The notes under the pieces were generated by a model. That model had not been told where the DNA came from, searched no databases, and saw nothing but the letters and a program-made list of their open reading frames with translations. Of a stretch of DNA of 64,000 nt, positions 18,498 through 40,731 are shown piece after piece (positions within the stretch are counted from its first letter, which is position 1; every line of letters begins with the position of its first letter). The position numbers and the translations under genes are program-made. This stretch comes from Lachnospiraceae bacterium. Its GTDB lineage: Bacteria > Bacillota > Clostridia > Lachnospirales > Lachnospiraceae. The stretch lies in NCBI GenBank assembly GCA_017509985.1, contig JAFWOE010000054.1:62001-126000 (forward strand). The letters are read 5' to 3'.

Positions 18498-18559
18498 ATA
18501 TTATATAAAGACTGTTCTGCTTTCAATTCAAATTCCATGTGAACATTCCAAAATGGAAT
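18498..18559 (-). promoter_or_regulatory. LysR-type operator 1 and promoter of the TRAP operon
   Basis: The palindrome ATTCC-AAAAT-GGAAT is at 18545-18559. Eleven bp away is TCAATTCAAAT (18523-18533), which overlaps a minus-strand -35 TTGAAA (18526-18521). Seventeen bp on is -10 TAATAT (18503-18498). A strong upstream palindrome and a second site at the -35 is the usual LysR activator layout. The same arrangement recurs at 25.1 and 40.7 kb. Confidence 0.78.
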
Positions 18560-18670
18560 ATTCCTACAGTTCGTTGAGAGAGGTAAATGTGAATACTCCT
18601 GATGCCGGCCAGCTGTATGCTAACCCGTATTATTCAATAAACGAACCAGAATGAATTTAAAGAATGTTCA

Positions 18671-18703
18671 AAAAGCTGCAGTCAAAGAGAGACCGCAGCT
18701 TTT
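18671..18703 (-). terminator. terminator after the lipoyl-E3 gene
   Basis: A 13-bp stem with one mismatch (18671-18683 with 18691-18703) is followed on the minus strand by a run of Ts (GCTTTTTGAAC). It lies 30 bp past the lpd stop and ends the dehydrogenase complex operon. The gap 18415-18732 thus holds this terminator and the dctP promoter. Confidence 0.82.
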
Positions 18704-18732
18704 AGACATTGCATATTGTATATCCGGCTTCG

Positions 18733-20463
18733 TTAAAGTGAATTGATGGCTTTGCCATTCCATGCAGACATAAAGGCTTCTGCCAGGGCTTCACTGACAG
18801 TGGGATGGGGATGTATGGCATGGATGACCTCCTCTGCCGTAGCCTCGGCGGCCATGGCAACGGAGATTTCGCCGATCATGTCTGTAACGTGCTTTCCATA
18901 AAGATGGACGCCAAGGATCTCGCCGGTCGCCGCCTCTGTAATGACCTTGAAGAATCCGTCAGTGTCGCCTTCCACAAGAGACTTTCCGTTTGCTGCCATA
19001 CTGAACCTGCCGATCTTTATACTGTCGCCATATTGTTCACAGGCCTGCGCTTCAGTAAGCCCGATACAGGCGATCTCCGGATCCAGATAGATGCAGGAAG
19101 GAATGCGGTCATAATTCATGGGCTCGCTGCGCCCGCAGATATCCGCAACCGCCACCATACCCTCGTGAGACGCAGTATGGGCAAGCATCGCTTTACCGTT
19201 CACATCGCCGATAGCGTAGATATTCGGAACGTTCGTGCGAAGGAACTGGTCTGTTTTAATGGCCCTGCGGTCAAATTCCAGTCCGATGCCCTCGGCATTG
19301 AGGCCCTCGGTGTTCGGTATGCGTCCCACTGCCATAAGCACTGCGTCAGCCCGGACCTCACATTCTTCGCCGTCCAGCTCATAGTATACAGTATCATCCC
19401 GGACCTTGCTGACCTTCGCGCCCAGATGAAATACAACCCCGTCTTTGGTCATACGCTTCTGTGCAAATCCGGATACTTCAGTGTCTACCATAGGAAGGAT
19501 GTGATCCATCAGTTCAAGTACTGTGACCTTGCATCCAAGTTTATTGAGAAGATAAGCAAACTCCACGCCGATAACACCGCCGCCGATGACGGCCACAGAA
19601 GCAGGAACATGATCAAGTTCCAGGGCCTCCGTACTGGTGAGCAGATGATTTTCACCTTCCTGCGCTATGAACGGGGGAATAAACACACTGGAACCGGTGG
19701 CAATTATGATGTATTCAGCCGTAATCTTTTTCTCACCCACAGTAAGAGTATGGGTATCAGCAAAGCAGGCTTTCCCCTCAATAATATCTACTTTGTTTCC
19801 ACGAAGAAGGCCTTTTACTCCGGTGACCAGAGTCTTTACCACCTTATTTTTGCGAGCCTGAAGCTTTTTCATATCCACCGTTATTTTTGAGGCATCAACA
19901 CCCTCTACGGCGAAAGCATCCGCTTCCCGGACCTCATCAAATATGTTAGCTGTTTTAATCAGGGTTTTGGTAGGGATGCAGCCGACATTAAGGCAGGTGC
20001 CGCCGAAACAAGCCTCCTCGATGATACAGGTCTTCCTGCCCATCTGCGCCGCCTTAATGGCGGTCTCGTATCCGCCTGGACCGGCACCTATTACAGCAAT
20101 CTCATAATCATACTCCGCTGACGGCTCCCCGGAAACGAGGGACGGTGCTTCGGATGCAGCTTCCTTTGCGGAAGCCGCCGCCCCTGAAGATACATTGCCC
20201 GCAAGAGCTGCACCAGGATCCTCCCCTTCAGCGCCAATAACGGCGATGGGGGTGAAAACGTCGGCAAAATCGCCTTCTTCCAGCATTAGTTTGAGAACAA
20301 CACCGTCAGATGTCGCCTCGACAGGCATGGTAGTCTTGTCGGTATTGATCTCAAAGAGAACCTCACCTTTCCGTACAGTCTCACCGACTTTTTTATGCCA
20401 TTTTACCAGCTGGCCTTCATCCATATTAAAGCCTAATTTAGGCATGATGATCACTTCTGCCAT
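18733..20463 (-). CDS. lpdA: dihydrolipoyl dehydrogenase (E3) with N-terminal lipoyl domain
   Basis: 576 residues. Residues 1-80 are a lipoyl domain with the acceptor Lys43 in INTDKTTMP. A flexible Ala/Ser linker (about 90-115) leads to the FAD/NAD disulfide oxidoreductase part, with the redox pair in GGTCLNVGCIPTK, an NAD Rossmann GGGVIGVEF and the C-terminal HPHPTVSEAL with the catalytic His. It reoxidises the dihydrolipoyl arms of the complex using NAD+. The lipoyl domain is nearly the same as that of the adjacent E2, which points to duplication. Last gene of the four-gene complex operon. Confidence 0.95.
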   Translation of the reverse strand: MAEVIIMPKLGFNMDEGQLVKWHKKVGETVRKGEVLFEINTDKTTMPVEATSDGVVLKLMLEEGDFADVFTPIAVIGAEGEDPGAALAGNVSSGAAASAKEAASEAPSLVSGEPSAEYDYEIAVIGAGPGGYETAIKAAQMGRKTCIIEEACFGGTCLNVGCIPTKTLIKTANIFDEVREADAFAVEGVDASKITVDMKKLQARKNKVVKTLVTGVKGLLRGNKVDIIEGKACFADTHTLTVGEKKITAEYIIIATGSSVFIPPFIAQEGENHLLTSTEALELDHVPASVAVIGGGVIGVEFAYLLNKLGCKVTVLELMDHILPMVDTEVSGFAQKRMTKDGVVFHLGAKVSKVRDDTVYYELDGEECEVRADAVLMAVGRIPNTEGLNAEGIGLEFDRRAIKTDQFLRTNVPNIYAIGDVNGKAMLAHTASHEGMVAVADICGRSEPMNYDRIPSCIYLDPEIACIGLTEAQACEQYGDSIKIGRFSMAANGKSLVEGDTDGFFKVITEAATGEILGVHLYGKHVTDMIGEISVAMAAEATAEEVIHAIHPHPTVSEALAEAFMSAWNGKAINSL

Positions 20464-20481
20464 GGAGTCTCTCCTTTTTGC

Positions 20482-21882
20482 TTACAGCAGTATTCTAACA
20501 GGGTTTTCAAGCAGTTCTTTCATATATTCAACGAACTGAGAAGCGAGGAGGCCATCGATAACTCGATGATCCACTGAAAGCTGGATGTTCATCATCGGAC
20601 GGATCGCTATCGTGTCTTCGCCATTTTCATCCGTAATGACTACAGGAGTCTTACGGACAGAACTTACAGAGAGAATCGCAGCCTCCGGAGCATTGATAAT
20701 CGCAGTAAAGTTGCCAATACCGAACATTCCGAGATTGGAGATGGTAAAGGTTCCTTCGCTATATTCTATTGGCTGCAGTCTGCCTTCTTTTCCCCGGGCG
20801 ATGAGATCCCTGCTCTCCTTTGCGATCTCCACAAGGCGCTTGTCCTGAACATTTTTAATTACGGGAACTACGAGTCCGTTGCTGCCGGCTACTGCAGTGC
20901 CGATGTTTATCGATTTATAGGTGATAATCCTGTCGTCCTGTATGCTTACATTTACGCCGGGGAACTTAAGGAGCGCCTTGCAAGCGGCCATTGTAAGCAG
21001 GTCGGAAACGGCAATTTTGACTTCACCTGACTCGTTGAGCTTTTTACGCAGTGCGGTAAGTTCAGTCGTATCCACTGAGTCGGTAAAATAAAGATGCGGT
21101 GCTGTAAACTTTGAACTTGCCAGCTTTTCTCCGATGATCCTGCGGATTCCCTTATATGGAGTGATCTCTGCGATCTGAAGATTCTGGTTTTCGTTTTCTG
21201 CACCCGGTGTCGACGCTGTCCCCGCTGCACCCTCAACATCTGCCTTCATGATCTTTCCGCCGAAACCTGTTCCGGAAACATCCGACAGATCAACTCCCTT
21301 TATGGCGGCAACCTTTTTAGCAAGGGGAGAAGCTTTGACGCCGGAAGCAGCAGCCGGCATTGACTCGCCAAGCTTACGGACAACTGAGGAGTTCAGAATG
21401 TCTCTGGAGCAGATGCCTCCCTGATAGCCTGTACCGACAATTCCAACCACGGACGCAGGATCAATGCCCTCATCCTTAATTAATTTCCTTGCTCTCGGAG
21501 TTAACCTGAGGTTTTTGAAATCTGCGGTTGCTGCGCTGATGTCAGCTGGCTCAACAGCAGATGTTTTCTCTGCAGGAGCAGCCTCTGCAGCGGAAGCAGC
21601 TTCTCCATTTTGAAAAGCGGAGAGCGCCGCTTCGGGATCTTCACCCGCAGAACCTATGACCGCAATGGGGGTGAAGACATCGGCAAAATCACCTTCTTCC
21701 AGCATAAGCTTGAGAACGATGCCGTCAGACGTTGCCTCGACAGGCATGGTGGTTTTATCTGTATTGATTTCAAACAGGACTTCACCTTTTTTTACAGAAT
21801 CCCCAACCTGCTTGTTCCATCGGACAAGCTGGCCTTCGTCCATGTTAAAGCCGAGTTTGGGCATAATGATTACTTCTGCCAT
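20482..21882 (-). CDS. acoC: dihydrolipoamide acyltransferase (E2) of the 2-oxoacid/acetoin dehydrogenase complex
   Basis: 466 residues. Lipoyl domain at 1-80 (Lys43), a peripheral subunit-binding domain at about 125-165 (LTPRARKLIKDEGID), apparently a second such segment at about 185-220 (ASPLAKKVAAIKGVD), and a catalytic acyltransferase domain ending in SVDHRVIDGLLASQF, whose His and Asp form the active site. It transfers the acyl group from lipoyl to CoA. The gene sits between E1 beta and E3 with very short gaps. Whether the complex cleaves acetoin, pyruvate or another oxo compound cannot be decided from this subunit, so the symbol follows the acetoin dehydrogenase layout. Confidence 0.88.
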   Translation of the reverse strand: MAEVIIMPKLGFNMDEGQLVRWNKQVGDSVKKGEVLFEINTDKTTMPVEATSDGIVLKLMLEEGDFADVFTPIAVIGSAGEDPEAALSAFQNGEAASAAEAAPAEKTSAVEPADISAATADFKNLRLTPRARKLIKDEGIDPASVVGIVGTGYQGGICSRDILNSSVVRKLGESMPAAASGVKASPLAKKVAAIKGVDLSDVSGTGFGGKIMKADVEGAAGTASTPGAENENQNLQIAEITPYKGIRRIIGEKLASSKFTAPHLYFTDSVDTTELTALRKKLNESGEVKIAVSDLLTMAACKALLKFPGVNVSIQDDRIITYKSINIGTAVAGSNGLVVPVIKNVQDKRLVEIAKESRDLIARGKEGRLQPIEYSEGTFTISNLGMFGIGNFTAIINAPEAAILSVSSVRKTPVVITDENGEDTIAIRPMMNIQLSVDHRVIDGLLASQFVEYMKELLENPVRILL

Positions 21883-21894
21883 TACGATTCCTCC

Positions 21895-22875
21895 TTAGAC
21901 CATTGCTTTGATCTTGTCAGCGATCTTTTTGTCATCGGGAATAAGCGGAAATTCCAGCGCCGGGCTGAATGGAAGGGGAACATCTGCTGTTCCCATACGC
22001 TCGATCGGTGCATCCAGATAATAGAATACGTCCGGCATAACGCGTGCGGCGATTTCGCCGGTGACGCCGTAGCTGATATGCCCTTCATCGACAATGAGCA
22101 GCTTCCCGGTCTTTTTAACGGAGTTGATGATCGTCTCAGTATCCAGCGGAACCAATGTACGCAGATCAATCACTTCTGCTTTTATTCCTTCTTTCCGGAG
22201 ATTTTCTGCGGCTTTTTCTGCATAGATCGTCATACGTGAGTTTGTCACTACGGTGATGTCGGTACCTTCTGTGACGATACGGGCCTTGCCGAACGGAATA
22301 CAGATATCCTCGCCCAGATCCGGTACATCATTAAACTTTGTAGTATAAAGCATCTTATGCTCAAAAAACATTACCGGGTTATTGTCGCGGATTGCGGTCT
22401 TCAGAAGGCCTTTGCATTCTCCCGCCGTCGAAGGAACAACAACTTTGACGCCGGGGATATGACATGCCCATGCGTGAATGGACTGGGAATGCTGTGCAGC
22501 GGAAGAACGGCCGCCGCCTAAAGGCATACGTACCACCATGGGGACATTGCACTGGCCGCCCGACATATAGGTGATCTTCGCCATCTGGTTGAACAGGCCG
22601 TCTGCCGCCACCATAAGAAAGTCTGCAAACATAAGCTCGACTACCGGACGCATCCCGGTAAGAGCAGCGCCGACGCCCATACCGACGATACCGGCCTCGG
22701 AAATCGGTGAATCTTTGCATCTCAGATCACCGTATTTATCTTTCAGGCCGACAGTACATTTGAAGTTGCCGCCGATAACACCGATATCCTCACCCATTAA
22801 ATAAACGGAGCTGTCGCGTGCCATTTCTTCATCCAATGCTTCCAGAATAGCATCTCTTACCATAAGTTCTCTCAT
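21895..22875 (-). CDS. acoB: thiamine-dependent dehydrogenase E1 beta subunit
   Basis: 326 residues, transketolase-like pyrimidine-binding domain plus C-terminal domain. The start MRELMVRDAILEALDEEMARD and the motif GEDIGV (the Glu activates TPP) are typical, as are the PISEAGIVGMGVGAA and HSQSIHAWACHIPG segments. Together with the E1 alpha gene upstream it makes the alpha2beta2 E1 that decarboxylates or cleaves the substrate and loads the lipoyl arm. Family is certain; substrate (acetoin, pyruvate or other 2-oxo compound) is open. Confidence 0.9.
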   Translation of the reverse strand: MRELMVRDAILEALDEEMARDSSVYLMGEDIGVIGGNFKCTVGLKDKYGDLRCKDSPISEAGIVGMGVGAALTGMRPVVELMFADFLMVAADGLFNQMAKITYMSGGQCNVPMVVRMPLGGGRSSAAQHSQSIHAWACHIPGVKVVVPSTAGECKGLLKTAIRDNNPVMFFEHKMLYTTKFNDVPDLGEDICIPFGKARIVTEGTDITVVTNSRMTIYAEKAAENLRKEGIKAEVIDLRTLVPLDTETIINSVKKTGKLLIVDEGHISYGVTGEIAARVMPDVFYYLDAPIERMGTADVPLPFSPALEFPLIPDDKKIADKIKAMV

Positions 22876-22910
22876 CTTATTGAACCATCCTTTCTAAAGT
22901 CGTGTCACGC

Positions 22911-23906
22911 TCAGTCTACGAATACATCGGCATAGGCTTCAGCGGCATCGGGATATTCGCTTTCTTCCGCAAACTTGCAGGCAGCAGCGATCTCAGCGTC
23001 AACGGAGGCCTTGATCTCAGCGATCTCTTTTGCCGTAAGAAGTTTCTTCTGCTCAAGAACAACAAGCGGTTCGCGCGCCTTCCACTCTGCCAGTTCTTCA
23101 GGGTCGCGGTAAACGGCAGGGTCGCCGACATGATGGCCCTGCCAGCGGTAAGTCTTGCACTCTACCAGAGTCGGTCCTTTTCCGGCACGGGCATCGTCAA
23201 CAGCCTTCTGAACGACATCGCGAACTGCAAAAACATCATTGCCGTCAACGGCAACGCCGGGCATTCCGTATGCCGCTGCACGTTTATAGAGATCATGTTC
23301 GCGAGTGACTCTGCGGATATCTACCGAAATGCCATACAGATTGTTCTCGATAACATATACACACGGAAGATCCCATGCAGCCGCCATATTCAGGCTTTCG
23401 TGGAAAGTACCTTCATTTGCGGCAGAATCACCGAAAAAGCTCAGCGCGACCTGATCGGTACCGCGCAGCTTTGCAGAATATGCTGCTCCCGTCGCGATAG
23501 CGATGCCTCCTCCGACAATACCGTTAGCGCCCAGGAAGCCCTTCGACATATCCATAATGTGCATGGAGCCTCCCTTTCCTTTGGAATAACCGGTTTTCTT
23601 TCCGAGGATCTCCGCCATCATGCGGTTAAGATCTGCGCCCCGTGCGACCATGTGGCCATGCCCGCGGTGAGTAGAACCGACATAGTCATCATCGCGCATA
23701 CAGGCGATAGCGCCTGTCGCAACGGCTTCTTCGCCCAAATACAGGTGAGCAAGACCGGGCATAAGACCGCGCTTGTAGAATTCAAAGACTTCTTCTTCGA
23801 AGCGGCGGATTCGATACATCGTTGTGTAAAATTGTTTAGCCTGTTCTTTTAACCCATCTTTACCTTCAGCAGGTACTTTAGTGGCAGTTGCTTTCTTGGT
23901 GCTCAT
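22911..23906 (-). CDS. acoA: thiamine-dependent dehydrogenase E1 alpha subunit
   Basis: 331 residues. The TPP-binding motif runs from GDSAANEGTFHESL to IENN, and the N-terminal RRFEEEVFEFYKRGLMPG-like region and HLYLGEEAV are those of acetoin and pyruvate E1 alpha proteins. The phosphorylation-loop region around RGHGHMVARG is present. First gene of E1a-E1b-E2-E3. A LysR operator palindrome lies in the shared upstream region with the divergent lysR gene. RBS GGGGGT precedes the ATG. Acetoin dehydrogenase is the favoured reading, with a pyruvate or other 2-oxoacid complex as the alternative. Confidence 0.88.
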   Translation of the reverse strand: MSTKKATATKVPAEGKDGLKEQAKQFYTTMYRIRRFEEEVFEFYKRGLMPGLAHLYLGEEAVATGAIACMRDDDYVGSTHRGHGHMVARGADLNRMMAEILGKKTGYSKGKGGSMHIMDMSKGFLGANGIVGGGIAIATGAAYSAKLRGTDQVALSFFGDSAANEGTFHESLNMAAAWDLPCVYVIENNLYGISVDIRRVTREHDLYKRAAAYGMPGVAVDGNDVFAVRDVVQKAVDDARAGKGPTLVECKTYRWQGHHVGDPAVYRDPEELAEWKAREPLVVLEQKKLLTAKEIAEIKASVDAEIAAACKFAEESEYPDAAEAYADVFVD

Positions 23907-24159
23907 TTGCTTACCCCCGTATAGTATTAATGTAGTAGTCTTTTACGTTCCTCTCCAAGAACGGCGGCAGGTCTGCCGCAACATCATGAACGCCTGTGAT
24001 TAAAAAACACTCAAATAATAATAAAAAACATCTTGACGTTTTAAGATTCTTATAATATGTTGCACATAAGAATATTCCCGTTTGGAATAAGCCCTTTGCT
24101 TTGTCATTTTTTGATCAGCAATCTCGGTTCTGCTTTAATTAGTTGGAAAGGATCATGTC
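23907..24159. promoter_or_regulatory. divergent regulatory region aco/lysR with operator 2
   Basis: 253 bp between divergent starts. The palindrome ATTCC-CGTTT-GGAAT is at 24074-24088, the same motif as sites 1, 3 and 4 but without the TCAATTCAAAT element. A short GC palindrome GCGGCAG/CTGCCGC (23964-23979) lies in the E1 alpha leader. A clear promoter could not be fixed for either direction. Confidence 0.68.
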
Positions 24160-25083
24160 ATGACAATAGTGCAAATAAAATGCCTTTGGGAAGTAACTTC
24201 CCGGGGTAATTTTTCGGAGGCTGCAGAAAATCTGTATCTGACACAGTCTTCCGTTTCAAAAAACATTATGGCGCTTGAGCGCGAACTCGGAATATCGCTT
24301 CTGGACCGCACTTCACGTCCGTATAAGCTTTCCCCGGCAGGCAGCAGATTAATGCCGTATTTTCGCGAAATACTCCTTGCGTACGAAAGGATGGAGCTTA
24401 CGCTCCATGAAATCAAGAGCCACGGCCGGACATCAAAGAACAACTGTTTCCGTCTTATGGGGATGCCTGCGCTGACATCCTTCGGAATCACATCACTGGC
24501 GTATGCTTTTGAAAAAGCACATCCTGAATACAAGGTGCTGATATCCGAAGACGATGAGGACCGTGTCATTCTTGCGCTGCAAATGGGCAATTGCGATGTT
24601 GCTTTCTGTACAAATCTGCGCCTTAACCTGCCGGAATATAATTCCCTAAAATTTCTTACGGATACAATTACTGTTTACTACTCAGACCAGAACATTCATG
24701 CCAAAACGGATTCGCCGACCCTTCGGGACTTTGCTGATCAGACCTGGGTCTTCCCTCCGCCGCAGTCTGTCCATTATCCTGTCTGTCTGGATCTGTGCCA
24801 AAAGGCAGGATTTAATCCGGATATCGTACTGGCGACAAGCCGTCCGTCCACCGGAATGGAATACTTAAATAATCACAGCACCAATTGTGTATATATAGAG
24901 CTGGCCAGTATCCTGCACAGATATACCGGGGACGAAGGTCATTTCCTTACTCAATTATCAAATACTGCAAACGTCGAATTCTATATCGTGACCAGACGCA
25001 ACGTTGCGCTGCCGCAGGCAGCAAAAGCTTTTCTGGATTATGTAGCCAGGAATTCCTGCTTTTCCAGAGACACATTGAAATAG
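24160..25083 (+). CDS. LysR-family transcriptional regulator
   Basis: 307 residues. N-terminal winged HTH (about 1-60): IKCLWEVTSRGNFSEAAENL, then TQSSVSKNIMALERELG. The LysR effector domain follows (about 90-300). AAGGA precedes the ATG. It is divergent from the dehydrogenase complex operon, with an ATTCC-N5-GGAAT palindrome between them, the usual position for a LysR operator and for autoregulation. The same palindrome stands upstream of the TRAP operon, the lplA region and the 4-hydroxybutyrate/transhydroxylase run. This protein is therefore the best candidate for the pathway regulator of the whole central block. Effector unknown. Confidence 0.92.
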   Translation: MTIVQIKCLWEVTSRGNFSEAAENLYLTQSSVSKNIMALERELGISLLDRTSRPYKLSPAGSRLMPYFREILLAYERMELTLHEIKSHGRTSKNNCFRLMGMPALTSFGITSLAYAFEKAHPEYKVLISEDDEDRVILALQMGNCDVAFCTNLRLNLPEYNSLKFLTDTITVYYSDQNIHAKTDSPTLRDFADQTWVFPPPQSVHYPVCLDLCQKAGFNPDIVLATSRPSTGMEYLNNHSTNCVYIELASILHRYTGDEGHFLTQLSNTANVEFYIVTRRNVALPQAAKAFLDYVARNSCFSRDTLK

Positions 25084-25101
25084 AGTATCCCTTTGTATAA
25101 T

Positions 25102-25163
25102 ATCGTAAAAACATTCGGAATTTATGTCAATTCAAATACGCAAAAACTATTCCGAATCGGAAT
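25102..25163 (-). promoter_or_regulatory. LysR-type operator 3, oriented toward lysR
   Basis: TCAATTCAAAT (25127-25137), 11 bp, then ATTCC-GAATC-GGAAT (25149-25163), a perfect palindrome. As at sites 1 and 4 the element overlaps a minus-strand -35 (TTGACA, 25130-25125), with a weak -10 TACGAT 17 bp on (25107-25102). That promoter would read into lysR in antisense, while lplA lies the other way. It may serve lplA, an antisense RNA, or both. Confidence 0.66.
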
Positions 25164-25298
25164 AATGATTGCCGTTTTTCCTTAAATCCGTGGAATGTCA
25201 AGCCGTTCCTCTGACCGTTTCAGGAAACAAGCCGATCCATCATTTTCAAACACTAAACGCCTGTGTCGTACGGCAACATAAAGGAAGTGCTGAATGCT

Positions 25299-26288
25299 AT
25301 GATTTATCTGGAAAGCCAGTCATATGATCCATACTATAATCTGGCATTAGAACAATATGTATTTGACCGAATGCCCCGGGAAAACAGTTATTTAATTCTC
25401 TGGCAGAATGATAATTCAATTATCGTTGGGAAACATCAGAATACTGTGGAGGAAATTAACGTTGCCTTTGCACGGGAGCATGGCATCCGCATCGCAAGAC
25501 GTCTGTCCGGAGGCGGGGCGGTATACCATGATCTCGGCAATCTGAATTACACGATTATTACAGACGCCTCCGATATGGAAAGAATAAATCTTCAGGCATT
25601 CTGCATCCCTCTTGTCAAAGTTCTTCGGCAGATCGGACTGAATGCAGAGATCACCGGACGAAACGACGTTACGATCGAGGGGGTAAAATGCTCCGGGAGT
25701 TCACAGTATATAAAGCAGGGACGCGTTATGCATCATGGATGTATCCTGTTTGACACAGATCTGTCCATGGTCGCAGGCGCACTGAATGTGCCAAAGGATA
25801 AAATTGAATCAAAGGGACTCAAATCCGTCCGCAGCAGAGTCACCAATATCCGTCCTCTATTAACCGGAAAGATGGATATTGCCCAGTTCAGGGAACTGCT
25901 GAAACAACATATGTTTAATGATGAGCTTGAGCCATATGAACTGAGCAGCGCTGACGAGATCGAAATAAACCGGCTGCGCGATGAGCAGTACAGTACATGG
26001 GACTGGAACTTCGGATTTTCCCCACAATATAAAATACGAAAAAGCAGAAGAGTTGAAAACTGCGGCCGTATCGAAATCTCCATGAATGTGGCCAGAGGCG
26101 GTGTAATAACTGCATTCTCCTGCCACGGGGATTTTTTCGGCAATGGAGATATCGAAGATATTGCCCGTGCATTGATCGGTGAAAAGCTGGAAGAAACAAC
26201 GCTGGCGGACGCTTTGGACCGTCTGTCGATAGATCATTATATTAACGGGCTGAGTAAAGGCGAGTTTATACGAATACTGATGCAGTAA
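25299..26288 (+). CDS. lplA: lipoate-protein ligase A
   Basis: 329 residues from the ATG at 25299 (MIYLESQSYDPYYNLALEQ), with AAGGAAG about 10 nt upstream; a GTG at 25263 is the longer alternative. The signature RRLSGGGAVYHDLGNLNYT is complete, a catalytic Lys lies in VEGVKCSGSSQY, and the C-terminal domain is present. It activates lipoate with ATP and attaches it to lipoyl domains. The obvious targets are Lys43 of the E2 and E3 encoded a few kb away, so a dedicated lipoylating enzyme travels with its complex. Confidence 0.95.
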   Translation: MIYLESQSYDPYYNLALEQYVFDRMPRENSYLILWQNDNSIIVGKHQNTVEEINVAFAREHGIRIARRLSGGGAVYHDLGNLNYTIITDASDMERINLQAFCIPLVKVLRQIGLNAEITGRNDVTIEGVKCSGSSQYIKQGRVMHHGCILFDTDLSMVAGALNVPKDKIESKGLKSVRSRVTNIRPLLTGKMDIAQFRELLKQHMFNDELEPYELSSADEIEINRLRDEQYSTWDWNFGFSPQYKIRKSRRVENCGRIEISMNVARGGVITAFSCHGDFFGNGDIEDIARALIGEKLEETTLADALDRLSIDHYINGLSKGEFIRILMQ

Positions 26289-26319
26289 TAATTCTTCCGG
26301 TATCGAAATCTTAGTTAAT

Positions 26320-28234: not shown

Positions 28235-28236
28235 GG

Positions 28237-31092: not shown

Positions 31093-31112
31093 AGTTCCCT
31101 CCTAAATCTTTC

Positions 31113-32396: not shown

Positions 32397-32438
32397 ACTA
32401 CCGATTAATGGATGCGCTTCTGCAGTCGACCCCTGCTC

Positions 32439-33662
32439 TTACTTTTCTTCCTTTTCTTTCTTCATGCGTTCAAAATCCTTGCTGGTCGGATGGAAAACCG
32501 GCGGATTTTTGGCACGTTCTTCAAAAACTTTCTTATTTGCGGCTTTCTGATCCGGGTTTATTACCTGTTCAATCGGAACGAACGGTATGGATTCTTTCCA
32601 GTGAATGCCATTGATATCCGGCCGGCCGCAGAGGAACATCCTCTCACACGGAACAGGAAGCTTAAACAGCTTTGCTGCATTGCCGCCGAGAATCAGGTTG
32701 ATCTCATCCTGCCCGACCCATTCTTTCAGCTTCTGGATCTGAGTGGTCTCCCATCCCCACCAGTCCGACTGATAAGCCGGTGTAGCGGGCCAGCGTTTCA
32801 TAGAAGAAGACCATTGCTGGCCGCGGGCAGCATCCATGTGTAGATATTGAGGCACGTTGCCATAATCCGAACCCCACAACAGCTGTGTCGGTCCTACATT
32901 CGGATCTTCCACAGCCATACGGATTTCTTCCGCCGTCCAGGTTCCGACTTCCAGATATACGTTGGATTCAACGCCTCTGCCGGTGTATCTTCCGGCACTT
33001 TTAAGAGATTTGCGGATTTTCCAGTCGCCCAGAGCATAGTCGCCAATAGACTGGCCTCCATGGTTGACTATAATTTTAACATCCGGATATCTTCCGGACA
33101 GACGGTCCAGCAGCACCCACGGATCAAAATACAGATCGCTCCACTGTAAATCATGGTAGGCAATCGGAACCTTATATTTCCGGGCAAGATCAAAGAAGAT
33201 GCAGTACTCGGCAAACCTTTCCTCAAACGTGTAAATATGATTCGGGTCCCAGTCTCTGGGAACAAATTCCCCTATACCGATATATCGTCCTGTAGCAAGT
33301 GCCGTATCGATTTCCTCCGCTGCAGCATCGATCGTCCAGGGAGCTTCCCCTCTCTGTGCTTTCAGTTTCGTCATCTGATCGGAGCAGAACGCACGGAATT
33401 TGTCGGGGTATTTGTCCACGATTTCGAGCTGGGCTTCGTTGGTCGTGCCGATCAGGCTCGGATAAAGCAGCACCATATCGACACCATAACAGTCCATGTC
33501 CCACAAGGTCAGAGGAAGATTTTCTACATGTTCTACTTCCCCCTGTCCGGGCCTCATCGGCAGTCCGTCCCATCCTTCCGGCTGCGGATCATCACCAACG
33601 CTGTCATATAAGGTGGTAATATGCCCGTGTGTCTCTACTACAAAACGACCCATCTTACTCAT
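32439..33662 (-). CDS. amidohydrolase-2 family metal-dependent hydrolase/decarboxylase (copy 3)
   Basis: 407 residues. Divergent paralogue of the two at 13-15 kb. The metal motif is THGHI instead of GHIHC, followed by GIGEFVPR, IAYHDL, VNHGGQ and WGSDYGN, so candidate ligands remain, and YPSLIGTTNEAQ is shared. The C-terminus adds about 60 charged residues (NPDQKAANKKVFEERAKNP to the end). The location inside the 4-hydroxybutyrate/transhydroxylase run links both halves of the block to the same chemistry. M1 or M4 may be the true start. Confidence 0.83.
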   Translation of the reverse strand: MSKMGRFVVETHGHITTLYDSVGDDPQPEGWDGLPMRPGQGEVEHVENLPLTLWDMDCYGVDMVLLYPSLIGTTNEAQLEIVDKYPDKFRAFCSDQMTKLKAQRGEAPWTIDAAAEEIDTALATGRYIGIGEFVPRDWDPNHIYTFEERFAEYCIFFDLARKYKVPIAYHDLQWSDLYFDPWVLLDRLSGRYPDVKIIVNHGGQSIGDYALGDWKIRKSLKSAGRYTGRGVESNVYLEVGTWTAEEIRMAVEDPNVGPTQLLWGSDYGNVPQYLHMDAARGQQWSSSMKRWPATPAYQSDWWGWETTQIQKLKEWVGQDEINLILGGNAAKLFKLPVPCERMFLCGRPDINGIHWKESIPFVPIEQVINPDQKAANKKVFEERAKNPPVFHPTSKDFERMKKEKEEK

Positions 33663-33758
33663 AAACCAAATCTCCTTTCAGTAGTATAAAAGTAATTTTT
33701 ATTTATTATTTATTATTATTTATAATCCTACGCTGTTATGGATACTGTTTTCTGCCCT
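33663..33758. other. AT-rich spacer
   Basis: Between amidohydrolase 3 and the acyl carrier protein gene lies a TTTATTA-type low-complexity stretch (about 33699-33722). It may contain a weak minus-strand promoter, but none could be fixed. Confidence 0.4.
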
Positions 33759-34010: not shown

Positions 34011-34084
34011 GTTTTTTCCTCCTGAACTATTACAAAATGAAGCCGGCGCATTTTTAAAAAGCCATATTCCCGGTTTGTAGACCG

Positions 34085-34816
34085 TCATCGTATCATTAAG
34101 GTGATTTCCGCCGCCGCAGCAAGTTTTTCCCCGAGGAATATCTGACATCGCACCTCCGCACTGCCGAGCTCCCGCCGTTCTTTTAAAAGAGAAGCATGTA
34201 TTTCCATTTCCATCCCCGGAAGAATTGCCATCCGGCATTTAGCCTTTTTAATTTCAAAGAGCAGCGGCCGTTTTCCCTTATAATCCTCTAAAGAAAGCAT
34301 CATGATGCCTGCTGCCTGCGCCATGGCTTCAATGGACAGAACGCCCGGAAAGATCGGATCGCCCGGAAAATGACCCTGTAAAACGACATGCGCCGGATCG
34401 ACTTTATATACAGCCGTTATTTCCCGCCCTCTTATCAGCCTGGGGACAGCATCAATCAGCAGCATCGGTTCTCGATGGGGCAGGATCTGCAGAATCTGAC
34501 GGATGCTCAGGCTTTTCGCATTTTCGGAATCATCTTTCTCGCGGCAAATATCTTCGATCTTAGTTTTCGCCGGAAGAAAGTCTGCAAAGCTCAGAATATA
34601 AATCAGTCTGTCTTCGGGAACGGACAAGTCTTCCGTTCTCGCACATGCGGAAGGGCAGCCGCAGACGACAAGCACTGCCATGTAATTTGCCCTTGGGTTT
34701 ACATACTCAAACAGGATATCCGGAAACGCATCTTTTATTTTTTTTACAACCTTTTGACGGTCATAGCCGGCGTTGCATCCCCCGCAAAAACGGATACCGA
34801 TCTTTCGGTCTTTCAT
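34085..34816 (-). CDS. CGGC-type Cys domain fused to a FabZ-like hotdog domain
   Basis: 243 residues. Residues 1-90 hold RFCGGCNAGYDR and CGCPSACAR, a small Cys-rich domain likely to bind metal or sense redox. Residues 105-243 are a hotdog fold with ILPHREPMLLIDAV and GHFPGDPIFPGVLSIEAMAQAAG, the core motif of 3-hydroxyacyl-ACP dehydratase FabZ including the active-site His and Glu. Its ATG overlaps the stop of the upstream dehydrogenase (TGATG), and an ACP gene follows, so a dehydratase or thioesterase step on an ACP-bound intermediate is plausible. I know of no described function for this fusion. Confidence 0.8.
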   Translation of the reverse strand: MKDRKIGIRFCGGCNAGYDRQKVVKKIKDAFPDILFEYVNPRANYMAVLVVCGCPSACARTEDLSVPEDRLIYILSFADFLPAKTKIEDICREKDDSENAKSLSIRQILQILPHREPMLLIDAVPRLIRGREITAVYKVDPAHVVLQGHFPGDPIFPGVLSIEAMAQAAGIMMLSLEDYKGKRPLLFEIKKAKCRMAILPGMEMEIHASLLKERRELGSAEVRCQIFLGEKLAAAAEITLMIR

Positions 34817-35997
34817 CAGACGTTATCCTCCTGCATGCATGCATTTAAAACAGCAATAACATCTTCTTCCTGCAAAGACTGATATGCATTCTTAAGGTTT
34901 CCGTTCCATACTGCTTTTTTTGCGATCATCTCAAAATCCTGCCTGTGGACTTCGTCTTCTGAAAAAAGCGACGGAAGTGCAAGCTCCCTGTATAAAAAAT
35001 CCTCTGTTCGAAGAATACCCTGTCTGGCAGCATCCATCACCGGAATGTCTTCGGAAACACCGAACACCTGGCATCCAAACCTTCTGAATCGTTCCGCCGT
35101 GCTTTCATTCAAAACATATTTCATCCACTTCGGCATCAGCACCGCAAGGCCCAAACCATGCGTCATATCATAAAACGCAGACAGTTCGTGTTCGATCGGA
35201 TGACAGCTCCACACCTGTTGTTTCCCGCTGCCGATCAATCCGTTGATCGCCCATCCGGCAGTCCACATCAGATTGGCTCTTGCTTCATAATCATCCGGTT
35301 TTTCAACCGCAGCAGCGCTGTACCGCACAATGGTTTTCAGCATGCCTTCCATCATTGTATCCAGCATAAACAGTCCTGCATCCCTGCTGAAGTAGGTTTC
35401 AAGAATATGGGAGAACATATCTGCCGCACCGCAGGCAGTTTGAAACGCGTCAACGCAGAATGTATTTTCCGGGTCCAGAAAAGCGGCTTTCGGCAGTATC
35501 GCCGATGCGCTTCGACCAAGTTTATCCTTTGTTGCGGAATTGCTTATTACCCCGCTTGCATTGGTTTCTGACCCTGTTGCCGCAGTGGTCGGAACGGTGA
35601 TCACCGGCAGGGCTTTCGTGACTTGCTTCCCTCTGGAAAAGAAACGCCAGGGATCAAAATCCGCAAATGCCGATGCTGCAATCCACTTTGCTGTATCCAT
35701 AACAGAACCGCCGCCGACTCCGATTACCAGATCGATTTCATTGGTTTTGCAGAGTTCTCCGCCTTTCCGGACCAGATCGATTTCAGGATTCGCCTTTACA
35801 CACGGCAGTTCAAATACTTCAAGGTCCGCTTCCTGTAATATATCAAGGATCCTGTCATACAAGCCGCTTTTCCGAACAGACGCGCGCCCGGACACAAGAA
35901 GTACACGCCTTCCGTATAAGGCTGCCTCTTTACCGAGTTCCGTCAAATACTGTCCGAAATAGATTTTTACCGGTGTGTAATAAATAAAGCTGTTCAT
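34816..35997 (-). CDS. iron-containing alcohol dehydrogenase (butanol dehydrogenase type)
   Basis: 393 residues from the ATG at 35997 (MNSFIYYTPVKIYFG, the usual start of this subfamily); a GTG at 36018 is an alternative. The NAD(P) motif GGGSVMDTAKW and PTTAATGSETN are present. Metal ligands are expected in CGAADMFSHILE and HPIEHELSAFYDMTHG. It interconverts an alcohol and an aldehyde. The gene is coupled to the CGGC-hotdog gene and follows 4-hydroxybutyrate dehydrogenase, so a hydroxyaldehyde or diol of the same pathway is a fair guess. Confidence 0.88.
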   Translation of the reverse strand: MNSFIYYTPVKIYFGQYLTELGKEAALYGRRVLLVSGRASVRKSGLYDRILDILQEADLEVFELPCVKANPEIDLVRKGGELCKTNEIDLVIGVGGGSVMDTAKWIAASAFADFDPWRFFSRGKQVTKALPVITVPTTAATGSETNASGVISNSATKDKLGRSASAILPKAAFLDPENTFCVDAFQTACGAADMFSHILETYFSRDAGLFMLDTMMEGMLKTIVRYSAAAVEKPDDYEARANLMWTAGWAINGLIGSGKQQVWSCHPIEHELSAFYDMTHGLGLAVLMPKWMKYVLNESTAERFRRFGCQVFGVSEDIPVMDAARQGILRTEDFLYRELALPSLFSEDEVHRQDFEMIAKKAVWNGNLKNAYQSLQEEDVIAVLNACMQEDNV

Positions 35998-36054
35998 ACT
36001 CTGCCTGCTGACAATCACTTCCCCTTTCTTTATGCCGCAAGTCTGCGTAATGTA

Positions 36055-37167
36055 TTAATAGAGAGCTGCATAGATATCGCGGATCTCATCTCTGGTAAGG
36101 AAAACATAATTATTGCTTAGCAATCTTTGCTGGTTTGCAACTACACTGTCAGCAAAGCTTTCGATCTCGGCTTCCGTCATGCCGTATTCATGAAGCTTCT
36201 TACACTGAAGAATCGTGTTAAGGAGTTTTTCCAGTTCTTCATAAACAACAGCGATATCACAGCCAAGAATCCCTGCCAGACATTTGTTAAGATCAGCAAT
36301 CTTGCCGTTCGGGTCTTTTTCCATGTACTTGTTAAATACTCCTATGAGCATACAGTAGTTGGATTCTCCGTGAGCGACATGGTAAACTCCGCCGAGAGGA
36401 TAAGCCATGGCGTGAACGGCTGCACAGCCTGCGTTGCCAAAAGAAATGCCTGCATAGTTTGAAGCAATAAGGAAATCTTTAAGGAGAGGCTTTCTTGCTT
36501 CCGGACCTTCTTTCGCAATTACTTTATATCCATTAAGTATCATTTCAATCGCTTTATATCCGAACAGCTGAGTATAAACAGAAGCTTTGGGGGATAAAAC
36601 GGATTCCATAGCATGAACAAGCGCATCAATAGAGCTGGTTGCAAAGACCTTCATCGGAAGACCCATCAGGAGCTCCGGAATAAGAACCGCCTTGTCAGCA
36701 TACATCTGGTCAACCGCAAGGCCCATCTTGGTGTTTCTTTCAATGAGAGAAAAAACAGCAACGTTGGTTACTTCGGAACCGGTGCCGCAAGTAGTTGGAA
36801 CGAGTATCAGCTCCTTATCTTTTTCTATGGCATCCTTATTGTCATAAAGGTCAATTACAGGAACGGGGTTCTTAAGGGCAAGCACCTTGCAGATATCGAT
36901 AATCGTACCGCCGCCGATAGCAAAGATTCTTTTATACTCACCTTTCATATCCCCGCAGATCATTTCTGCCATATGGTTTGAAGGCTCGCCGATACCGTAC
37001 TTTTCCTGATACAGGACATCACACTCCAGGCCCAGCTGTCCGAAATACGGAGCATAGATATACTCGTTGGTAAGTATCAGGTCACCCTTACCAAGTTTAA
37101 ACTCTTCTGCAAATGCTTTGCATGTATCAAAAGCATGAAGTTCCGGTTTAATAGATAACTGTTTCAT
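36055..37167 (-). CDS. 4-hydroxybutyrate dehydrogenase (Fe-ADH family)
   Basis: 370 residues, the length of the Clostridium kluyveri-type enzyme. The N-terminus MKQLSIKPELHAFDTC, the dinucleotide motif IGGGTIIDICK, PTTCGTGSEV, metal-site blocks SIDALVHAMES and YHVAHGESNY agree with that group. It reduces succinate semialdehyde to 4-hydroxybutyrate or runs in reverse. Directly downstream of the CoA-transferase and the dehydratase, it completes the step sequence 4-hydroxybutyrate, 4-hydroxybutyryl-CoA, crotonyl-CoA. No symbol is given because names differ between species. Confidence 0.88.
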   Translation of the reverse strand: MKQLSIKPELHAFDTCKAFAEEFKLGKGDLILTNEYIYAPYFGQLGLECDVLYQEKYGIGEPSNHMAEMICGDMKGEYKRIFAIGGGTIIDICKVLALKNPVPVIDLYDNKDAIEKDKELILVPTTCGTGSEVTNVAVFSLIERNTKMGLAVDQMYADKAVLIPELLMGLPMKVFATSSIDALVHAMESVLSPKASVYTQLFGYKAIEMILNGYKVIAKEGPEARKPLLKDFLIASNYAGISFGNAGCAAVHAMAYPLGGVYHVAHGESNYCMLIGVFNKYMEKDPNGKIADLNKCLAGILGCDIAVVYEELEKLLNTILQCKKLHEYGMTEAEIESFADSVVANQQRLLSNNYVFLTRDEIRDIYAALY

Positions 37168-37198
37168 TTTTGACTCCTTTACAGAAAAATCGAATTAA

Positions 37199-38494
37199 TT
37201 ATTCCTCATATTTGCATTTAAACTTGTTTTCAAAGAACTCAATAAGCTCATCTCTGAAATCGGGATGTGCAATCTTTATAAGTCGGCGGGCTCTTTCTCT
37301 GAGAGTCTGTCCTTTAAGATCTGCTATTCCATATTCCGTTACGATATACTGAACATCGTATCTGGAAGTAGTAACAGCTGCGCCTTCATCAATTACAGGA
37401 ACGATCTTGGAGACTTTTCCTTTTACAGTGGAAGGCATGGCAAGTATGCTGCGGCCGCCCTTGGAAATAGCCGCACCGCGCACGAAGTCAACCTGTCCGC
37501 CGACACCGGATATCTGCTTATGGCCAATGCTGGTGGATACTACCTGTCCCATAAGGTCTACCTGAACACAGGAATTAATGGAAACAAGGTTATCATTCTG
37601 ACCAATAACATATGGATCGTTAACATATTCGGCAGGATACATTCCGACATCCGGATTGTGGTCTACAAAATCGTAGAGAGTCTGTGTCCCCATAAGGAAA
37701 TTTGCAATAAACTTGCCCGGATGCAGAGTCTTCTTGGAGTTGTTGATAACCCCCTCTTTAGCAAGCTGGACAACTCCTGTTGAGAACATCTCGCTGTGAA
37801 TCCCAAGATCCTTCTTATCGTGCAGAAAAGAAAGGACTGCATCCGGAATTGCACCGATACCGAGCTGAAGACAGTCTCCGTCTTTTATGAGTTCAGCGCA
37901 ATAACGGCCGATTTCCCTCTCAACCTCTCCGATGGGAGGCTCCGGCAGCTCAATAATAGGCTCATCATGCTCAACAAAGACTGATATCTCGTCAACATGT
38001 ATTCTGCTGTTGCCGTAAGTATAAGGCATACATTTGTTAACCTGAGCAATGGTTGTTTTTGCACACTTGGCGGCAGTAAGAGTATAGTCGACAGAAACGC
38101 CAAGACTGCAATAGCCATCCTCATCCGGCGGTGTTACCTGTAGCAGGCATATTTCCGGATTATATGACGCAACAAGTTCCGGTATTTTGCTGAAATAGAC
38201 AGGTGTAAAATCTCCTCTGCCTTCTTCAACAGCTTTGCGGGTGCTGGCGCCAAGGAAGAGGCCGTTATGTCTGAAGTTTTTTGCATACTCCGGCCTGCAG
38301 TACTCGGCTTTGCCCATAGCAACCATATGCACGATCTCAACATTCTCATATTCGGCAGCATTCGCTACCATTGCGTCAAGAAGATAGGTTGGTTCGCCTA
38401 CGGCATGACCTACGATAACTCTGTCTCCTGATTTGATGAGTTTGACTGCTTCATCAGCGCTCATCAGCCTGGATTTATATGTTTCTTTCCACAT
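37199..38494 (-). CDS. abfT: 4-hydroxybutyrate CoA-transferase (acetyl-CoA hydrolase/transferase family)
   Basis: 431 residues, family I CoA-transferase of the Cat2/AbfT kind. Expected features are the catalytic Glu in GIHSEMFSTG, the oxyanion loop GVGGQVDFVRGA and the C-terminal EYGIADLKGQTLRERA. It moves CoA from acetyl-CoA or a related donor to 4-hydroxybutyrate. The flanking dehydrogenase and dehydratase genes support this substrate. AGAGGT precedes the ATG. Confidence 0.9.
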   Translation of the reverse strand: MWKETYKSRLMSADEAVKLIKSGDRVIVGHAVGEPTYLLDAMVANAAEYENVEIVHMVAMGKAEYCRPEYAKNFRHNGLFLGASTRKAVEEGRGDFTPVYFSKIPELVASYNPEICLLQVTPPDEDGYCSLGVSVDYTLTAAKCAKTTIAQVNKCMPYTYGNSRIHVDEISVFVEHDEPIIELPEPPIGEVEREIGRYCAELIKDGDCLQLGIGAIPDAVLSFLHDKKDLGIHSEMFSTGVVQLAKEGVINNSKKTLHPGKFIANFLMGTQTLYDFVDHNPDVGMYPAEYVNDPYVIGQNDNLVSINSCVQVDLMGQVVSTSIGHKQISGVGGQVDFVRGAAISKGGRSILAMPSTVKGKVSKIVPVIDEGAAVTTSRYDVQYIVTEYGIADLKGQTLRERARRLIKIAHPDFRDELIEFFENKFKCKYEE

Positions 38495-38585
38495 AGCTTT
38501 TGTACCTCTTTAGTTCTTTTAAAAAAAATAGTATTGTTTCTGTCTGCGGGCAGTCTTTCTCACTGAAATAATCATAGATACTTTT

Positions 38586-38915
38586 TCATTTTTCCTCCGT
38601 TGTAATTGCGGTACTATTTCTGACAGCATCTCTTTGCTTAAGCATATCCTTTGCAACAGAAAGAAGGTCTTCACTGACTCCGCTAACAAGAATCACATCT
38701 TTAATCTCCGGGATCTCCTCTGCTATTGCCGAACAAACCAACGATTCAAGAGTCATATTTGCCGCAGGACAGTTGCTGCATCTGCCAAGAAAACGAACCT
38801 TTAAAATGTCGTCTTTGATTTCAACAATCTCAATATCGCCCTGATGCTCTCCCATCTGCGGGCGAACACTTACCTCTATAACCTTTTCGATGCGTTTTCT
38901 CAGATCTTGCGTCAT
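38586..38915 (-). CDS. NifU C-terminal domain-like iron-sulfur scaffold
   Basis: 109 residues. The single NifU/Nfu-like domain has the cluster-binding pair in GRCSNCPAANMTLE. It would deliver a 4Fe-4S cluster. Placed between the CoA-transferase and the 4-hydroxybutyryl-CoA dehydratase, whose active site is a 4Fe-4S cluster with an unusual His ligand, it is probably dedicated to maturing that enzyme. The 3' tail of about 25 residues is not conserved. Confidence 0.85.
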   Translation of the reverse strand: MTQDLRKRIEKVIEVSVRPQMGEHQGDIEIVEIKDDILKVRFLGRCSNCPAANMTLESLVCSAIAEEIPEIKDVILVSGVSEDLLSVAKDMLKQRDAVRNSTAITTEEK

Positions 38916-39005
38916 CGTTTCTCTCCCATAAAAAAGGATCCTTTAACTCGTCAGATAATTCTGATTATAACGATTCCGGTTGCCCTCCATTAAAGTATTT
39001 CCAAC

Positions 39006-39046
39006 TTCAAACAAGGTGATTGGTTCTCCCAATCACCTTGCTTGAA
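39006..39046 (-). terminator. hairpin between the dehydratase and NifU-like genes
   Basis: A perfect 12-bp core, CAAGGTGATTGG (39012-39023) with 39029-39040, is extended by TTCAA/TTGAA across a one-base mismatch. No T run follows on the minus strand. It probably reduces read-through or protects the abfD mRNA. Confidence 0.6.
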
Positions 39047-39137
39047 CCCTTTAATGCTCAGGCTGCACGAAATGGTGCCTTTAATGTTTCGTCCATAAAC
39101 TTCCACATATATGAAGTATCTGGTCAGCTATGCCGTC

Positions 39138-40586
39138 TCATTCTTCGATATGAGCGATCTTCTTCGCAAGTTCTTTCTTTTGGGCAAGGTTTCCCTGCCT
39201 TGAAATCATGATACGCTGTGCCTGGGGGGAACCGGCGCCATGCATGGACTCGGTTCTGTAACCGACAGCCGCTGTTCCTAAAGAGAGGTTCTCGATAAGT
39301 CTCAGGATCTTCAGACGGTTTTCTGTGGTAGTGGAATCAACGCCGCGGAGATACTTCTCTATATATGGGCCAAGCTTCGGATCTCTGAAATCCTTTTCAG
39401 AAGGAGCCGTAACCATAAGTCCACCGGCTATGTCTTCGGCAAGCCGCACGATCTCATACGGAAATCTGGTAACATTCTGCTTACAGACATTGGCAAGCAG
39501 CAGGTCAATCAGATAGGCACCGGATTCCGTCGGACGGCCTTCTGCAGAGCAGGCAATACCGCAGGCATACAGAGTTTCGTTAAGATGTATCATTTCAATG
39601 AGTTTATCCTTGATGTGGGATGCCTTGGCCGCACCGTTATAATCAGCAGCAACAGCAGCTGCTCCGATAAGAACATCTCCTACGCCAACTTTGCAGCCAC
39701 CGTAGCTCTGACGATGATACCCTGCAAATCTCTCAACAAGAACGCCGGCAAATTCGAACTCTCCATTAAGGAAAATGCGGTCATTCGGTACAAATACGTT
39801 GTCAAAAATAACAAGTGCTTCTACCCCGCCGAATTCCTGGTTGCCGACATCCATTTTGGAACCTTCAAGTTTTCTTGTATCGCAGGACTGACGGCCGATA
39901 ATCATGAAGAGCCCCGGTGTGTCGAGCGGAACAGCAAAGGAAATAGCGTAATCCTTATCGTCTGGCCCCATAGACTGGGTCGGCATTACAATTACCTCGT
40001 GGGAGTTAAGGATACCGGTCTGGTGGGCTTTAGCACCGCGTATGACCACACCATCCGGACGGCGTTCTACAACATGGAGAAAAAGATCCGGATCAGCCTG
40101 CATGTGGGGTGCTAAGCTGCGGTCGCCTTTCGGGTCTGTCATTGCGCCATCAACAGTGAGATCCTTATCCTGAACATATTTCAGGAATTTCTTAAAGTTC
40201 TCATAATAATTGGTCCCGTACTTCTTATCAATTTCATAGGTAGTACTGTACAAAGCATTGAAAGCATCCATACCTACACAACGCTGGAAACATGCAGCGG
40301 TCTTCTGGCCGCAAAGCCTCTGCATCTTAACCTTTTTAATAAGGTCCTCTGTGTTTCTATGGATATTGGAAAATCGATTGATTTTGCTTCCATCTTCAAG
40401 CGTGACAGTCATGATGTCTTCATACTCTGGCATCTGCGCCAGATCATAGGTCATTCTGACAGAATTGAGAGCAGGGCGAAGAATAGGATCATCTACCGGG
40501 CTTTCGATTTTCTTACCGAACATATAGACTTCCATTTTGATATTTCGGATACTCTCGATATACTGTTCACCAGTCATAAGTCCCAT
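39138..40586 (-). CDS. abfD: 4-hydroxybutyryl-CoA dehydratase/vinylacetyl-CoA isomerase
   Basis: 482 residues, HpaB/AbfD flavoprotein family. All four cluster ligands known from the Clostridium aminobutyricum enzyme are here: Cys99 and Cys103 (CFQRC), His291 and Cys298 (HRQSYGGC). This distinguishes it from oxygen-dependent HpaB hydroxylases. With FAD and a 4Fe-4S cluster it dehydrates 4-hydroxybutyryl-CoA by a radical mechanism and yields crotonyl-CoA. It is the first gene of the long run down to 27.3 kb, behind LysR operator 4 and a promoter. Confidence 0.94.
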   Translation of the reverse strand: MGLMTGEQYIESIRNIKMEVYMFGKKIESPVDDPILRPALNSVRMTYDLAQMPEYEDIMTVTLEDGSKINRFSNIHRNTEDLIKKVKMQRLCGQKTAACFQRCVGMDAFNALYSTTYEIDKKYGTNYYENFKKFLKYVQDKDLTVDGAMTDPKGDRSLAPHMQADPDLFLHVVERRPDGVVIRGAKAHQTGILNSHEVIVMPTQSMGPDDKDYAISFAVPLDTPGLFMIIGRQSCDTRKLEGSKMDVGNQEFGGVEALVIFDNVFVPNDRIFLNGEFEFAGVLVERFAGYHRQSYGGCKVGVGDVLIGAAAVAADYNGAAKASHIKDKLIEMIHLNETLYACGIACSAEGRPTESGAYLIDLLLANVCKQNVTRFPYEIVRLAEDIAGGLMVTAPSEKDFRDPKLGPYIEKYLRGVDSTTTENRLKILRLIENLSLGTAAVGYRTESMHGAGSPQAQRIMISRQGNLAQKKELAKKIAHIEE

Positions 40587-40653
40587 AATATTCTTTTCCT
40601 TTCAATAGTTTTAAAATAATCATCTGGTTATGCAGTGCTATAATTTATTTATT

Positions 40654-40715
40654 ATGTTAAAACATGAATATTATGCTTTCAATTCAAATTCCGGAGTAAG
40701 ATTCCAAATTGGAAT
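40654..40715 (-). promoter_or_regulatory. LysR-type operator 4 and promoter of the abfD run
   Basis: ATTCC-AAATT-GGAAT (40701-40715) and TCAATTCAAAT (40679-40689) are 11 bp apart, exactly as at sites 1 and 3. Minus-strand -35 TTGAAA (40682-40677), 17 bp, -10 TAACAT (40659-40654). Bases TTTCAATTCAAATTCC are identical to site 1, far beyond chance. Confidence 0.8.
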
Positions 40716-40731
40716 ATTGCAAAGCTGCACA

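Follow-up and report, generated by a model that had tools for sequence, protein, structure and literature searches.

LysR-type activators bind a recognition site with a T-N11-A pattern near -65 and an activation site near -35, as the excerpted text of PMC5603801 sets out for PnpR/PnpM, and the excerpted text of PMC4834489 gives a similar geometry for ThnR. According to the same excerpt of PMC5603801, no conserved activation-site motif is known for LysR proteins. The present study concerns a stretch of 64,000 nucleotides from the genome of a Lachnospiraceae bacterium (assembly GCA_017509985.1, contig JAFWOE010000054.1, positions 62,001 to 126,000 of the forward strand; hereafter the window), in which four copies of the palindrome ATTCC-N5-GGAAT accompany a lysR gene at 24160-25083 on the plus strand. 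We consider it highly probable that these palindromes are recognition sites of the encoded LysR protein and that the operator of its clade is ATTCCATTNTGGAAT combined with a GAATTG element. As in the PnpR/PnpM and ThnR systems, to the extent that the excerpts describe them, the window palindrome has the T-N11-A pattern, an estimated centre near -61 and a second element at -35, and lysR lies near its putative targets, several operons in one predicted aromatic regulon. The system would differ from the LysR activators covered by the PMC5603801 excerpt in that the -35 element of the clade has a conserved core, GAATTG, and it differs from PnpR/PnpM and ThnR in that one window site faces into lysR itself. 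Among the best matches of a literature search, no published description of this operator was found.

The palindrome is present in exact form at 18545-18559, 24074-24088, 25149-25163 and 40701-40715 (sites 1 to 4), the four places reported by a first-pass annotation of this DNA, and nowhere else in the window. Shuffled versions of the window contain a mean of 0.15 exact copies, and none of 100 shuffles reached four. All four sites are intergenic by our gene reading; an unconvincing plus-strand frame of 145 amino acids (40630-41067) overlaps the palindrome of site 4. When two mismatches are permitted the count rises to 48 against 42.9 expected, which is chance level and leaves the exact form as the only informative one. 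Across the 2,223,391 bases of the genome there are 11 exact copies, where about 5 would be expected if the shuffle rate of the window is scaled up, and six of the seven outside the window fall within open frames that are 240 nucleotides or longer; the seventh, on contig C40, does not. The idea that any ATTCC palindrome is a target was rejected on the chance-level count and on these six sites.

At sites 1, 3 and 4 the palindrome belongs to a larger composite. The sequence TCAATTCAAAT occurs at exactly three places in the window (18523, 25127 and 40679), each 11 bp from a palindrome, and all three composites are on the minus strand, pointing left. Read on that strand, the palindrome is followed after 11 bp by ATTTGAATTGA, within which a -35 box begins; a -10 box stands 17 bp past that box. 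At site 1 the element spans 18523-18533 and the promoter TTGAAA-17-TAATAT (18498-18526) faces the dctP gene of an operon for tripartite ATP-independent periplasmic (TRAP) transport. The element of site 3 (25127-25137) leads into TTGACA-17-TACGAT (25102-25130), which is directed away from lplA and enters the 3' end of lysR in antisense, and that of site 4 (40679-40689) into TTGAAA-17-TAACAT (40654-40682), which faces a 4-hydroxybutyryl-coenzyme A (CoA) dehydratase gene. With the start site estimated, the three sites have the layout of LysR-activated promoters, a T-N11-A palindrome near -65 and a second element near -35; the centre near -61 assumes a start 7 bp after the -10 box. Promoter-like matches as such are near chance (16 against 13.2 expected in one scanned region, 23 against 16.2 in the other), and the argument consequently rests on the fixed position of the promoter relative to the motif. 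With up to three mismatches allowed, the composite TCAATTCAAAT-N11-ATTCC-N5-GGAAT is found three times in the genome, always perfect and always in the window, with no near-miss, and the reversed-pattern control is found nowhere. The element 11 bp away, its overlap with a TTGAAA or TTGACA -35 box and the 17-bp gap, all described at three sites by the first-pass annotation, were thus borne out, and the genome-wide scan it had proposed revealed a composite confined to the window rather than scattered at random. Outside the motif, sites 1, 3 and 4 differ by eye, and recent duplication of one promoter segment was rejected.

Intergenic palindromes could also be RNA hairpins that terminate the preceding genes: sites 1, 3 and 4 do follow gene ends, and our scan flags site 3 as a terminator-like minus-strand hairpin. 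However, sites 1, 2 and 4 are absent from the terminator lists, and the palindromes of homologue loci lie mostly upstream of lysR, between divergent genes, where they are tied to -35 and -10 boxes. Termination was accordingly rejected on the scan of both regions, and we give it almost no chance of being the explanation.

The case for a LysR operator is carried by the loci of related LysR genes. These loci were picked by protein similarity only, the first 10 at E <=1e-25 among 397 genomes of the family, and a composite was scored in other genera when a palindrome with at most one mismatch was followed 13-19 bp later by GAATTG. Four of the first 10 loci have an exact palindrome (0.13 expected) and six have the composite. 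A profile built from the window LysR and seven homologues, kept for having the motif or a near form, was then searched against the same 397 genomes and matched at threshold in 184; the counts cover 22 new loci among the best 30, of which 7 have an exact palindrome and 10 the composite. Three of the first 10 loci (L009, L014 and L015), which lack the motif or its second half, were omitted from the profile; their two genomic regions reappeared as L084 and L085, which count as misses among the 29. Altogether the composite stands beside 16 of 29 LysR homologues across other genera, compared with 0 of 19 other LysR loci of the window's own genome (exact palindrome in one, on contig C40) and 1 of the 26 LysR loci that the profile retrieved beyond the family (exact palindrome in none). 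In 40 rounds of shuffling the homologue loci in two-base blocks, no composite arose, and together with the window shuffles and the rarity of the motif in the genome this led us to reject a chance origin. A TA...T box, which was not used in picking the 16 sites, lies 16-18 bp past the -35 box in 14 of them and at exactly 17 bp in 11; each remaining distance between 8 and 30 bp accounts for 2 of the 16 at most. In the window, as in genome G364, 15 bp separate the palindrome from GAATTG, and the remaining 15 composites have gaps of 17-18 bp; the LysR of G364 is also the sister of the window LysR in our tree (support 100/98, starred). This phylogenetic footprinting, which the first-pass annotation had also proposed, together with the geometry supports its reading of the sites as a LysR recognition site plus an activation site.

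Several observations weigh against this reading. The homologues behind the profile were chosen partly by motif (3 of the first 10 omitted), and 13 of the 29 loci lack the composite, making it a patchy trait. The fork that holds all 30 clade rows is supported at only 80/89, and the composite label requires 10 changes on the tree compared with a shuffled mean of 14.2, a value as low as that in 6 of 500 shuffles; the trait is clustered but patchy on the LysR tree, with gains or losses. The bare pattern occurs at 40 places in the 397 family genomes (the reversed control at 1), but of 30 of these that were inspected, 14 fall inside open frames 150 codons or longer and at 7 the locus includes a clade LysR, so the bare pattern is not diagnostic. 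Among six genomes of the same genus the composite occurs in one, within open frames (L095), and the reversed control also in one. Close orthologues of the window LysR are missing as well: among 41 relatives only its own genome matched, the best other match in the 397 family genomes is at 31%, and a contig-level scan of genomes returned 10 partial matches at 30-36%, none of them orthologous. Finally, one exact palindrome, that on contig C40, stands beside a LysR gene from outside the clade.

This last palindrome raises the question of whether another regulator binds the four sites: the C40 LysR, the helix-turn-helix protein at 47976-49439 or the GntR-type protein at 49716-50882. The C40 copy is exact and lies between its lysR and a URO-D/TRAP operon, and the latter two proteins are encoded in the same low-G+C island as the sites. 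Yet the composite tracks the clade of the window LysR across genera, the C40 LysR falls outside that clade and its site has no GAATTG, and site 2 adjoins the lysR of the window. We therefore regard a different regulator as very unlikely. The C40 palindrome (5239-5253; L037) is followed by a rightward TTGACA-17-TATAAT with its -35 box at the 18-bp distance from the palindrome that sites 1, 3 and 4 also have. That two URO-D proteins are homologous parts of one regulon was considered and rejected, as they have no significant similarity.

The window LysR (307 amino acids) has an N-terminal HTH_1 and a C-terminal LysR_substrate domain, both above Pfam cut-offs, which identifies it as a LysR-type regulator. 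Against the named LysR equivalogs of NCBIfam (GltC, CidR, BenM and others; best 25 of 50 families) all of its scores are below the cut-offs, the best being about 94 bits where 250-350 are required. In the mechanism that we infer for the clade, the operator would be ATTCCATTNTGGAAT followed 15-18 bp later by GAATTG, which merges into the -35 box, with the -10 box 17 bp further on. A LysR tetramer would sit on the palindrome of each of sites 1 and 4 and, once inducer is present, also on the GAATTG element at -35, thereby bringing RNA polymerase to the TRAP/amidohydrolase operon in the case of site 1 and to the 4-hydroxybutyrate genes of the AbfD-AbfT-Hbd type in that of site 4. Predicted LysR control of these two operons is well supported. 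Site 2, in turn, would serve repression of lysR itself.

Sites 2 and 3 are where a single regulon for the whole block, as the first-pass annotation had it, meets difficulty: the promoters of sites 1 and 4 face the TRAP and 4-hydroxybutyrate genes, whereas inclusion of the dehydrogenase operon and of lplA found no support. The palindrome of site 2, between lysR and the E1 gene and without assigned strand, has no GAATTG and hence lacks the activation half. A candidate lysR promoter, TTGACG-17-TATGTT (24033-24061, plus strand), ends 12 bp before the palindrome, and a candidate E1 promoter, TTAAAA-18-TATTAT (24015-24044, minus strand), lies 11 bp farther from it than the promoters of sites 1, 3 and 4 lie from theirs; taken alone, both are chance-level matches. 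Site 2 thus departs from the LysR-activated layout, which weighs against the preferred reading of the four sites and leaves LysR control of the dehydrogenase operon uncertain; its probable role is autoregulatory. Within the first codons of lysR, a terminator-like plus-strand hairpin (24184-24206; 10 pairs, then TAATTTTT) could attenuate the gene.

The orientation of site 3 also weighs against that reading. Its composite points left, so that the promoter annotated as standing before lplA in fact points away from that gene and into the 3' end of lysR, and a possible lplA promoter on the plus strand (25075-25103) is a chance-level match. By strands entered by hand, all 16 composites beside homologue LysR genes face away from lysR. 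It is a real possibility, if short of an even chance, that LysR controls only sites 1 and 4, together with its own gene through site 2, and that the regulon leaves out the dehydrogenase operon and lplA, with site 3 a relic or a silent antisense promoter left, for example, when lysR ended up between an old promoter and the E1 gene. A complete composite that faces a gene start exists only at sites 1 and 4, and both the missing GAATTG of site 2 and the orientation of site 3, which faces lysR, fit such a restriction. Against it, site 3 shows no deviation in palindrome, 11-bp gap or element, a state that is hard to maintain without use, and site 2 retains a perfect palindrome. Site 3 may be a relic, a block to the possible lplA promoter or an excludon-like promoter. 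For the last of these, an unlikely proposal, inducer-bound LysR would fire RNA antisense to the whole of lysR that continues into the E1-E2-E3 messenger; the terminator scan shows no terminator-like hit on the minus strand from 25102 to 23906. If this is true, then switching on the oxidative complex would turn down the LysR activator.

TanR is a regulator of the LysR type, and BsdA regulates bsdBCD in Bacillus subtilis. In Lactobacillus plantarum, TanR is described together with gallate decarboxylase (excerpt of PMC8004764). Like these regulators of non-oxidative hydroxyaryl-acid decarboxylases, the LysR genes of the clade adjoin decarboxylase genes: UbiD or UbiX lies within about 1.5 kb of lysR in 13 of 29 homologue loci and in 0 of 19 controls. 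By Pfam, six neighbour proteins comprise three UbiD, two flavoproteins (UbiX-like) and one member of the UGSC family; other neighbours, assigned by eye, are a chorismate-synthase-like gene (L092), transporters (L093 and L094) and a membrane protein (L091). At two clade loci, L008 (by Pfam) and L013 (similar by eye), the site faces a gene with an N-terminal UGSC-family domain. In G364 the composite, with the N15 spacing of the window, stands in front of dctQ-dctM-dctP-UbiD, and a second one on the same contig (C87) in front of a CoA-transferase gene (L126 and L127); TRAP, two UbiD, CoA-transferase, BadF-type ATPase and HgdD-type genes lie near the G364 LysR, and this contig is a probable second regulon of the same kind. 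A phenolic (hydroxyaryl) acid is the probable inducer, judging by the UbiD/UbiX decarboxylases and TRAP carriers that habitually neighbour the clade. Unlike TanR and BsdA, neither of which is in our LysR tree, the window LysR has putative targets without UbiD; the single UbiD hit of the genome (C53:1423-2058) is outside the window.

The putative target operon of site 1, its extent taken from gene spacing, runs on the minus strand from dctP to a gene of the M24 peptidase family (10712-18435; Pfam assignments). It comprises dctP (17239-18435), dctQ and dctM, two Amidohydro_2 proteins (14115-15242 and 13016-14062), a protein of the 3-hydroxyisobutyrate-dehydrogenase family (12027-13019) and the M24 peptidase-family protein (10712-11947). 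The first-pass annotation had spoken of decarboxylase-like enzymes; Pfam does place these proteins in Amidohydro_2, but the two that were compared with solved structures found no match. Next to it on the same strand are the E1 alpha, E1 beta, E2 and E3 genes of a 2-oxoacid-dehydrogenase-type complex with lipoyl domains (18733-23906; Pfam). The nearest solved relatives of its E1 alpha are pyruvate dehydrogenase E1 alpha (2ozl, 3.5e-67). An lplA-like lipoate-protein ligase gene lies at 25263-26288 on the plus strand (Pfam).

Behind site 4, the putative targets (34085-40586, minus strand) encode proteins of the 4-hydroxybutyryl-CoA dehydratase type (39138-40586; solved relative 1u8v, 2.7e-234), NifU-like type (38586-38915; Pfam), 4-hydroxybutyrate CoA-transferase type (37199-38494; 3eh7, 5.4e-162) and 4-hydroxybutyrate dehydrogenase type (36055-37167; relative named Cvir-Hbd2, 2.3e-137), a second iron-containing alcohol dehydrogenase (Fe-ADH, 34816-36018) and a FabZ-like protein (34085-34816), the last two by Pfam. 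Further genes on the same strand (27329-33662) are possibly in the same transcript: an Amidohydro_2 protein downstream of the FabZ-like gene (32439-33662; Pfam), a major facilitator superfamily transporter (31113-32396; Pfam) and the large (28237-31092; 4v4c, 4.9e-123) and small (27329-28381; Pfam) subunits of a pyrogallol-hydroxytransferase-like molybdenum enzyme. The site had been placed before a 4-hydroxybutyrate/transhydroxylase run; this is sustained for the 4-hydroxybutyrate genes and is no more than possible for the transhydroxylase genes, which lie 8 kb downstream of the promoter with gaps of 223 and 423 bp in between. A second transhydroxylase-like gene is found at a contig end elsewhere in the genome (C54, 8327-10522; L019 and L041), and six matches of 53-61% identity, some partial, occur in a genome of the same genus (G004; L017, L018 and L020-L023), which suggests that the genus has an enlarged set of these enzymes.

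Between about 10.7 and 50 kb the G+C content, in 2-kb steps, is 0.43-0.51, lower than the 0.52-0.55 of both flanks, which suggests that this block is acquired DNA. At E 1e-20 the window LysR has no match in any of six genomes of the same genus. The ring-cleavage genes of Azoarcus anaerobius resemble 2-oxoacid dehydrogenases. Pyrogallol-phloroglucinol transhydroxylase and the route from resorcinol via hydroxyhydroquinone belong to the anaerobic phenolic pathways covered in the excerpted text of PMC10470551. At the level of genes, the window resembles such pathways in grouping a transhydroxylase-like molybdenum enzyme, Amidohydro_2 proteins and a lipoate-type dehydrogenase complex; unlike those in the excerpt, it combines them with 4-hydroxybutyrate genes. 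The low-G+C block looks like an acquired island for an aromatic or phenolic acid, the presumed substrate, with 4-hydroxybutyrate as intermediate or electron sink.

For a prediction from sequence, the support for this regulon is unusually good. Apart from its odd antisense promoter the regulon would be of a familiar kind, two of the four site assignments of the first-pass annotation needed correction, and what the sites signal is very probably a LysR switch for the use of plant-type phenolic acids without oxygen. The analysis provides a searchable and testable operator, with a conserved activation element, for a LysR clade of anaerobes. It would also place uptake, chemistry of the aromatic type and 4-hydroxybutyrate fermentation under a single predicted response, and it gives a starting point for learning which phenolic acids are sensed by these bacteria.

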